Assembly (NCBI GenBank): GCA_026982475.1
Contig: JALSHB010000190.1
Coordinates: 1 to 32,993, forward strand
Direction: 5' to 3'
Length of the DNA: 32,993 nt
Source: Chromatiales bacterium
GTDB lineage: Bacteria > Pseudomonadota > Gammaproteobacteria > SZUA-152
Shown: positions 22,253-25,893 of the stretch, in pieces
Layout of the letters: the number at the start of each line of letters is the position of its first letter
Position numbering within the stretch: the stretch's first letter is position 1
Program-made: the position numbers and the translations under genes
Notes under the pieces: model-generated
The model's input: only the letters and a program-made list of their open reading frames with translations
What the model was told of the DNA's origin: nothing
Databases searched by the model: none

Positions 22253-22346
22253 CAACGCAAAGGCGCAAAGGCGCAAAGGCGCAGAGAACGCAAAGTTTTT
22301 TGATTTGTTTTCTTTGCGTTCCCTGCGCCTTTGCGACTTTACGTTG
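22253..22346. repeat. Octamer inverted-repeat element, site A (rpe|gph)
   Basis: Left arm caacgcaaaggcgcaaaggcgcaaaggcgcagagaacgcaaag, right arm ctttgcgttccctgcgcctttgcgactttacgttg, 16-nt T-rich loop. Confidence 0.92.
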
Positions 22347-23026: not shown

Positions 23027-23038
23027 AGATACAATGAC

Positions 23039-23125
23039 TCAACGCAAAGACGCAAAGGCGCAAGGACCGCAAAGGCATTTCCTATTTTTTCTTTGCGTTC
23101 TCTGCGCCTTTGCGCCTTTGCGTTG
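23039..23125. repeat. Octamer inverted-repeat element, site B (gph|trpE)
   Basis: caacgcaaagacgcaaaggcgcaaggaccgcaaag / ctttgcgttctctgcgcctttgcgcctttgcgttg. Confidence 0.92.
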
Positions 23126-23143
23126 GATTTTTCGGGCCTAGCC

Positions 23144-24643
23144 ATGACCATGACTGCCGAACAGTTCGCCGAGCTGGCCCGCCAGGGCTACAACCGCATC
23201 CCGGTGATGCGCGAGGTTCTGGCTGACCTGGATACGCCGCTCAGCACCTATCTCAAGTTGGCCGACGGGCCCTATTCCTACCTGTTCGAGTCGGTGCAGG
23301 GCGGCGAGAAGTGGGGCCGCTACTCCATCATCGGCCTGCCCTGCCGGCGCGTGGTGCGTGTGGCGAGGCATCGCGTCGAGCTGCTGGACTCTGGCGACGC
23401 CATCGAGTCACTGGAAGTAGACGACCCGCTGGCCTGGATCGAGGACTTCCAGTCCCGCTACCGCGTGGCCGAGGTGGATGGCATGCCGCGCTTCAATGGC
23501 GGCCTGGTGGGCTATTTCGGCTACGACACCGTGCGCTACATCGAGCCGCGCCTGGCCGAATGCCCCAACCCCGATGAGCTGGGCACGCCGGACATCCTGC
23601 TGATGGTGTCCGACGAGGTGGTGGTGTTCGACAACCTCAGCGGCAAGCTGTATCTCATCGTGCACGCCGACCCGGCCGTCGATGATGCCTATGCCCATGC
23701 CCAGCAGCGCCTGGATGCCCTCAGCGAACGCCTGCGCACCGCCACGCCGCGCCCCGAGCCCACCACTTCCAGTGAGGTGACGGAGAAAGACTTCGTCTCC
23801 GACTTCACCGAGGAGGGCTTCAAGCAGGCGGTGGAGAAGGCGCGTGAATACATCGTCGAAGGCGACGTGATGCAGGTGGTGCTGTCGCAGCGCCTGACCA
23901 TCCCCTACAGCGCCCCGCCGCTGGATCTGTACCGCGCCCTGCGCAGTCTCAACCCGTCGCCTTACATGTTCTACCTGAACCTGCACGACTTCCATATCGC
24001 CGGCTCCTCGCCGGAGATCCTCACCCGCCTGGAAGACGGCAAGGTCACCGTGCGGCCCATCGCCGGCACCCGCCGCCGCGGCCACACGGAAGAAGAGGAT
24101 CGCGCCCTGGAGGCCGAGCTGCTGGCCGACCCCAAGGAGCTGGCCGAGCACCTGATGCTCATCGACCTGGGGCGCAACGACGCCGGCCGCGTCAGCCAGA
24201 TCGGCAGCGTCGAACTCACCGAGAAGATGGTGGTGGAGCGTTATTCCCACGTCATGCACATCGTCTCCAACGTCGAGGGCCGGCTGCGGCCGGGGCTGAC
24301 CGCCATGGACGTGCTGCGCGCCACCTTCCCCGCCGGCACCGTCTCCGGCGCGCCCAAGATCCGCGCCATGGAGATCATCGACGAACTGGAGCCGGTGAAG
24401 CGCGGCGTGTATGCCGGCGCCGTCGGCTATCTGGCCTGGAACGGCAACATGGACACCGCCATTGCCATCCGCACCGCCGTGATCAAGTCCGGCAAGCTCT
24501 ATATTCAGGCCGGCGCCGGCGTGGTCTACGACTCCCAGCCCCAGCTCGAATGGAAGGAAACCATGAACAAGGCCCGCGCCGTGTTCCGCGCCGTGGCCCT
24601 GGCCGAGGCGGGGCTGGACGGGGTTTCGAGGAAACACCGATGA
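23144..24643 (+). CDS. trpE: Anthranilate synthase component I
   Basis: [30 protein letters not shown]-like region, [34 protein letters not shown]. Confidence 0.97.
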
Positions 24644-24651
24644 ACTTCTTT

Positions 24652-25110
24652 AACGCAAAGGCGCAAAGGCGCAAAGGACGCAAAGGAGTGTCTTCATGGA
24701 TGAAAATGCGCTGTCGCGGGAAATCATCGGCGCGGCCATCGAGGTTCATCGAAACCTGGGGCCGGGCCTGCTGGAATCGGTTTACCGGCAATGCCTGGTT
24801 CGAGAGCTGGATCTCCGGCGTATTCCGTGCCTTACCGAGGTGCCGATCCGGGCCGAATACAAGGGGCTGAAGTTTGATGTGGCCTACCGCGCTGATCTGC
24901 TGGTTGCCGACAGGGTGGTTGTGGAGCTGAAAGCCGTGGAAAATGTCCTGGACGTTCACGAGGCGCAGTTGCTTTCGTATCTGCGCATGCAGGACAAGCG
25001 GCTGGGCCTGCTGATCAACTTTCATGTTCGGATGTTGAGGGATGGAATAAAACGTGTGGTCAACGACCTATAGCACTTTGCGATCTTTGCGCCTTTGCGC
25101 CTTTGCGTTG
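24652..25110. mobile_element. Octamer inverted-repeat element, site C, with a GxxExxY ORF between its arms (candidate mobile element)
   Basis: Left arm aacgcaaaggcgcaaaggcgcaaaggacgcaaag (24652-24685); right arm ctttgcgatctttgcgcctttgcgcctttgcgttg (25076-25110); ORF 24696-25073 inside. Confidence 0.55.
24696..25073 (+). CDS. GxxExxY family protein (PD-(D/E)XK nuclease-like, PDDEXK_3)
   Basis: REIIGAAIEVHRNLGPGLLESVYRQCL ... VAYRADLLVADRVVVELKAVENV ... QLLSYLRMQDKRLGLLINF; D and ExK residues present. Confidence 0.9.
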   Translation: MDENALSREIIGAAIEVHRNLGPGLLESVYRQCLVRELDLRRIPCLTEVPIRAEYKGLKFDVAYRADLLVADRVVVELKAVENVLDVHEAQLLSYLRMQDKRLGLLINFHVRMLRDGIKRVVNDL

Positions 25111-25710: not shown

Positions 25711-25893
25711 CAACGCAAAGGCGCAAAGGCGCAAAGGCGCAAAGGCGCAAAGAGCGCAAAGAGCGCAAAGTCTAGAACCTGAATCCGTGAGTTCATGACG
25801 GCGACGCGCACAACTGCTTGATTCGCCCTGAACTCACGGATTCAGGTAGAAATTATTTCTTTGCGTCCTTTGCGGCTCTGCGCCTTTGCGTTG
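25711..25893. repeat. Octamer inverted-repeat element, site D (trpG|trpD), with a nested palindrome
   Basis: Left arm 25711-25770, right arm 25859-25893; inner 18-bp perfect IR cctgaatccgtgagttca (25778-25795) / tgaactcacggattcagg (25829-25846). Confidence 0.92.

Follow-up and report, generated by a model that had tools for sequence, protein, structure and literature searches.

Insertion of IS200/IS605 elements produces no target-site duplication, and a separate group of proteins, the Rpn/YhgA-like PD-(D/E)XK putative transposases, has been proposed to promote DNA mobility; to our knowledge, no octamer-armed elements are associated with the latter. The described systems closest to the locus considered here include the REPtrons, in which the gene of a RAYT, an HUH tyrosine transposase of the IS200/IS605 type, has inverted REP palindromes on both flanks (PMC3733652). 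The locus itself is built around a GxxExxY protein, a family with an annotated member in Chrysochromulina parva virus BQ1 (PMC12085832) and one that therefore extends to the large algal viruses. Openly readable papers on the arms, GxxExxY, PF13366 and TIGR04256, a body of literature that lies apart from ISfinder and curator notes, hold no description of an armed element. The octamer-armed GxxExxY element appears to be undescribed, although curators may well have remarked on repeats close to TIGR04256.

The window, a stretch of 32,993 nucleotides from a Chromatiales bacterium, contains one gene-bearing element (element C) and three gene-less copies (sites A, B and D) in the gaps of neighboring genes:

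22254..22345, no strand assigned: site A, gene-less copy, rpe-pgp gap
23041..23124, no strand assigned: site B, gene-less copy, pgp-trpE gap
24652..25109, plus strand: element C, complete arm-gene-arm unit, trpE-trpG gap
24652..24685, plus strand: left arm, four CGCAAAG units at a spacing of 8/8/9 bp
24682..24688, plus strand: AAAGGAG, Shine-Dalgarno-like by sequence, 7 bp before the ATG
24696..25073, plus strand: GxxExxY gene (TIGR04256/PF13366, by profile matches), ATG start, 125 aa
25076..25109, minus strand: right arm, four inverted CGCAAAG units
25712..25892, no strand assigned: site D, gene-less copy with a seven-unit left arm and a loop bearing its own palindrome, trpG-trpD gap

As the original prediction had described, the GxxExxY reading frame of the trpE-trpG gap lies between octamer arms, starting 10 bp past the left arm and with its stop 2 bp before the right arm. 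The left arm (24652-24685) reads AACGCAAAG GCGCAAAG GCGCAAAG GACGCAAAG, and its last unit would appear to supply the Shine-Dalgarno-like AAAGGAG of the gene. Within the window the word CGCAAAG occurs 31 times, compared to 6.3 ± 2.2 in shuffles, and the 17-mer arm pattern has 18 matches against 0.26 expected. The exact 15-mer CGCAAAGGCGCAAAG is present 46 times in the whole genome (reversed control, 0), from which approximately 27 distinct inverted-arm elements with CGCAAAG arms were extracted. Two more GxxExxY genes in this genome are accompanied by another unit, CACAGAG/CACGGAG; with this unit, locus L001 bears complete inverted arms and L003 an upstream array only.

The encoded protein matches both TIGR04256 (E 3e-42; 143.6 bits, cut-off 35) and PF13366 PDDEXK_3 (E 2e-40; 138.4 bits, cut-off 22) over its full length. 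Alignment also upheld the assignment to the PD-(D/E)XK superfamily, with the characteristic residues present as G24-E27-Y30, D67, E77xK79 and Q91xxxY95. Among 126 proteins, E27 and D67 are invariant (126/126), E77 and K79 are each found in 125/126, and Q91 and Y95 are nearly invariant. A sequence-based search for a solved homologue found none; the confidently predicted structure (pLDDT 94.9) has as its best PDB matches in Foldseek Cas4 SSO0001, lambda exonuclease, LHK-Exo and AdnAB, at E-values of only ~2.5e-3. From this model the protein is predicted to be a minimal PD-(D/E)XK nuclease of the RecB/Cas4/lambda-exonuclease type. Searches for an HUH tyrosine transposase, or for a DDE, serine or tyrosine IS transposase, returned none, PDDEXK_3 and GxxExxY being the only matches. 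Where computable among the pairs listed, dN/dS ranges from 0.05 to 0.23, and pN is lower than pS in 84/84 close pairs; the protein has therefore been retained for its activity, unlike the decayed copies nearby. The aligned genes show that purifying selection acts on the nuclease, whose active site is intact.

The link between arms and gene extends well beyond this genome. GxxExxY loci were picked by protein alone and comprised those of relatives, 80 loci from across the prokaryote tree, and 29 same-phylum loci kept as a hold-out. The 80 cross-phylum loci span Verrucomicrobia, Planctomycetes, Chloroflexi, Cyanobacteria and Acidobacteria, as well as Bacteroidota, Omnitrophota and methanogenic archaea. 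A tandem array of the generic unit (CRCRRAG at a spacing of 7-10 bp) lies within 200 bp of the gene in 85/96 loci with enough flank, compared to 68/1285 shifted windows. The expectation that inverted octamer arms would be enriched at GxxExxY genes elsewhere was borne out, the gene being enclosed by arms oriented plus upstream and minus downstream in 45/96 loci and in 0/1285 shifted windows of the same loci. Because the discovery set served to define the unit, the hold-out provides the fair figure: here 13/26 genes are enclosed, compared to 0/139 other ORFs in the loci, and 19/26 have any array, compared to 28/139. Several loci lacking CRCRRAG arrays use other words, namely CATGAAGAA, 10-bp CRCRRAT words and AATCCTG.

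At the genome level, arrays and the GxxExxY gene are associated across 299 genomes (37/61 versus 16/238, odds ratio 21), an association that is partly a lineage effect (not significant within the best-sampled family, f66, p 0.10; significant outside it, p 2e-6). Genomes with orphan arrays were searched again with PF13366 and yielded nothing above the cut-off. One genome (G212; L210, contig 1) carries 139 array hits without a GxxExxY gene; its arrays are tandem hairpins with a second repeat in the loops and with left-arm words that differ from those of the right arm. Genes neighboring GxxExxY are mostly co-directional with it (upstream 73/92, downstream 70/89), an orientation bias that suggests expression by read-through from host genes. 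In a distant lineage, from a different class of the same phylum, numerous GxxExxY copies are situated just before a trpC-like gene (MSSILNEI...; L143, L146, L147, L150, L152, L158, L161 and L170). Gaps of the trp operon thus seem, from these gene neighborhoods, to have been struck repeatedly in distant lineages.

Comparison of the loci shows that arms and gene co-occur across phyla and domains, and that the unit word cosegregates with the protein lineage. A tree of 100 proteins of less than 75% identity requires 39 changes of word, compared to 52.7 ± 2.1 when the labels are shuffled (a value this low in 0/300 shuffles), although the shortness of the protein leaves few branches with good support. 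The word is common to a protein and its nearest relative in 25/79 cases against 11 ± 3.6 expected, and a divergent group with 10-bp words comprises L054, L153, L155, L157 and neighbors. Arms agree at 89% within one element and at 82% between elements (0/2000 permutations). This cosegregation of word and protein fits either joint inheritance of arms and gene or a recognition code, without separating the two.

Evidence of movement comes from orthologous gaps in relatives, a set comprised of one genome per species. The trpE-trpG gap holds a CGCAAAG element in G000, G011, G013, G016 and G017, and a decayed or internally deleted form of this type in G003 and G018 (226 bp). In G005 and G009 the same gap is occupied by an element of the CACRGAG type, of which G002 (211 bp) and G006 retain internally deleted forms. 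The empty sites that had been anticipated were found in nine genomes, with gaps of 2-49 bp (e.g. G007, G010, G012, G025, G028, G031-G034). With empty, intact and internally deleted states all present, this one locus reveals how gene-less copies arise: an internal deletion removes the gene from a full element where it stands, and what is left is an arm-loop-arm copy resembling a MITE, like A, B and D. All gene-bearing trpE-trpG copies are in sense; flipping of the gene between the arms, suspected from seemingly antisense loci, was ruled out, as the loci are not flipped. Three different element types occupy the gap between carA and carB (gene identity inferred from sequence) in G000, G004 and G005. 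New sites of insertion are mostly short gaps of operons, entered in the sense direction. Other palindromic repeats, namely TGTAGGAGYGGCTTYAGCCGCG and GTAGGGTGGGCA...GCCCACC (L232, L194, L267; L175, L176, L179, L180), also fill orthologous operon gaps of relatives, and these gaps are therefore general repeat hotspots.

A young subfamily with CATGAAG units, found only in G001, G004 and G006 among seven genomes searched, provides the cleanest case of insertion, at fliP-fliQ. Its pattern gives approximately 18-20 hits each in G004 and G006 and none in G000, G002, G003 and G005. The fliP-fliQ gap, at which the identities of FliP and FliQ were confirmed, is contiguous (empty) in G001, G002, G003 and G005 and occupied in G004 and G006. 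The G004 copy, which holds a decayed GxxExxY gene, reads CCTTTACC-[GTAATTACTTACACC...GGTGTAAATAGTTAC]-CCTTTACC, with an 8-bp direct repeat on both sides; that of G006 is a shorter, internally deleted form with CCTTTAGC/CCTTTATC. Seven CATGAAG copies can be read at both ends; their 8-bp flanks agree at 8, 8, 7, 6, 6, 5 and 4 of 8 positions, so that at least 7/8 is reached by 3/7 elements, compared to 0/42 mismatched flank pairs (maximum 6). The direct repeats in G004, the empty sister gaps and the flank matches together establish that the CATGAAG subfamily inserts with an 8-bp target-site duplication. Among CRCRRAG elements (n=165), where the inverted repeat boundary is TTMAM-CRCRRAG, no fixed-length duplication was detectable, perhaps owing to their age. 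No intact CATGAAG parent was found, because the GxxExxY copies of this type bear stops or are truncated. Several CATGAAG elements of G004 and G006 sit within a larger dispersed repeat, TACGGATTTAATGCCTATTTCG ... TTTAATCGCTGAGGACTCC (L246, L252, L259, L268, L271, L250).

Sites A, B and D had been described as bearing the same arms as element C; they bear variants of those arms around short loops, with an arm word that differs from copy to copy. The rpe-pgp gap of site A is empty in G006 and occupied in the other relatives examined, the pgp-trpE gap of site B has no octamer element in G005, G011 and G017, and the trpG-trpD gap of site D has none in G012, G033 and G025. A search for GxxExxY remnants in the gene-less loops of the same genome, A, B and D included, found none recognizable, and descent of A, B and D from a copy of element C is for this reason not demonstrated. 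The proposal that they are MITE-like derivatives of a candidate parent therefore stands at the level of the family and not for this particular copy. The loops of three gene-less elements (L013, L017, L021) have in common a stretch of another dispersed repeat of the CCGGAATGACG type, a case of nested repeats. In relatives (L231, L234, L238-L242), a short ORF that resembles a leader and contains two Trp codons (MFYTLQINWRKERWRG-like) lies between pgp and trpE, and element B takes its place in the window (23030-23150); a trp attenuator may therefore have been lost in this genome.

Element C is probably a copy of a very widespread family of small mobile elements, with its PD-(D/E)XK nuclease as the likely mobility enzyme. 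Empty and occupied orthologous gaps show the mobility of the family, and the role of the nuclease in it is what we infer. A full-length element is approximately 450 bp long and carries its single gene between inverted terminal arms, in which an 8-bp word (CRCRRAG with a spacer) is repeated in tandem 2-7 times; some clades have words of 9-10 bp. In the proposed mechanism, the nuclease would recognize the octamer word of its own element, probably in the form of a hairpin that is extruded or single-stranded, and would cut at the element ends; a staggered cut of the target by the nuclease, followed by fill-in repair, would yield the 8-bp duplication, and the enzyme may be able to act in trans on gene-less copies. 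We lean, by a modest degree, towards the broader reading that these elements constitute a new transposable element class of bacteria and archaea, in which a minimal RecB/Cas4-like nuclease reads a lineage-specific octamer word, makes 8-bp duplications and has seeded MITE-like intergenic hairpins across a sizeable fraction of environmental genomes.

An unrelated transposase acting in trans, such as a DDE enzyme, could instead move the elements, with GxxExxY as a passenger or a helper in repair, resolution or homing. Several families of DDE transposases typically generate 8-bp target-site duplications, the GxxExxY protein is very small, and the array-rich genome noted above has no such gene. This explanation is nevertheless unlikely, as GxxExxY is the sole ORF of the full-length element, the paired-arm CATGAAG elements of G004 and G006 (75-434 bp, in a search limited to 800 bp) are too small for another transposase, the unit word follows the GxxExxY tree across phyla, and the gene is under strong purifying selection. 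It is more doubtful still that the arms are host regulatory or mRNA-processing hairpins, processed as RNA by GxxExxY and spread by recombination rather than transposition. Placement in operon gaps with a sense bias, the Shine-Dalgarno-like end of the left arm and the strong hairpin potential of the element, which as single-stranded DNA folds back on itself as a whole (z -6.4), would agree with such a role; a clean insertion, with its target site duplicated and the sister genomes empty, would not, nor would gaps that in relatives are empty or hold different element types. Furthermore, the fold relatives are mainly DNA nucleases, and no Rfam family reached its gathering score, the sub-threshold hits being mostly miRNA-type hairpins. 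Least credible is a defense or conflict module, in which a Cas4-like nuclease would serve against phages or competitors and the arms would act as an immunity or addiction signal. The Cas4-like fold is accompanied by a weak match to a Cas4 HMM, but that match (E 0.004) is the only one in PADLOC; gene-less arm copies outnumber the genes, elements decay by internal deletion at orthologous sites, and carriage by phages and plasmids is essentially absent, with matches in 0/50,697 phage records and only 8/72,556 plasmid records.

If the nuclease proves to be a transposase, the family would represent a new transposon class, adding an enzyme class to the known transposition chemistries of prokaryotes. 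It would also provide natural word-enzyme pairs for studying the recognition of a short DNA word by a minimal nuclease, and would explain much of the operon-gap repeat content of uncultured lineages. Many genomes have annotated GxxExxY proteins to which no role has been assigned, and the recurrence of dispersed octamer repeats (e.g. CACAGAGGCACAGAG) in unrelated genomes has lacked an explanation; the link between the two gives each a testable function.

Set beside known systems, the GxxExxY protein resembles the Cas4, RecB and lambda-exonuclease nucleases in its E, D, ExK and QxxxY motifs and its predicted fold. It differs in being a stand-alone protein of 125 aa within its own armed element, with no iron-sulfur cysteine set evident in the alignment. 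The Rpn/YhgA-like proteins are likewise PD-(D/E)XK enzymes with a proposed part in mobility and differ in family and size. As in the REPtrons, palindromic repeats in inverted orientation bracket the gene, extragenic copies lacking it are numerous, spread is chromosomal and the repeat word is specific to the lineage. However, the REPtron RAYT is an HUH enzyme whereas GxxExxY belongs to the RecB/Cas4-like PD-(D/E)XK nucleases, and the arms are tandem octamer arrays in place of GTAG-tagged hairpins. Unlike IS200/IS605, octamer-armed elements of the CATGAAG subfamily show an 8-bp target-site duplication. Like MITEs (PMC10969869), the elements are short, with terminal inverted repeats, internal-deletion derivatives and, in the CATGAAG subfamily, target-site duplication. 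Terminal inverted repeats without a transposase gene are found at A, B, D and more than 20 other copies, and derivation from a gene-bearing parent is seen at trpE-trpG (G002, G003, G006, G018) and fliP-fliQ (G006). In contrast to MITEs, the parent is a one-gene PD-(D/E)XK element of no recognized IS family, and the terminal repeats are octamer arrays of variable word. By analogy, the family would work in the manner of a REPtron/MITE system, and it is placed outside the REPtrons because it has no HUH transposase.
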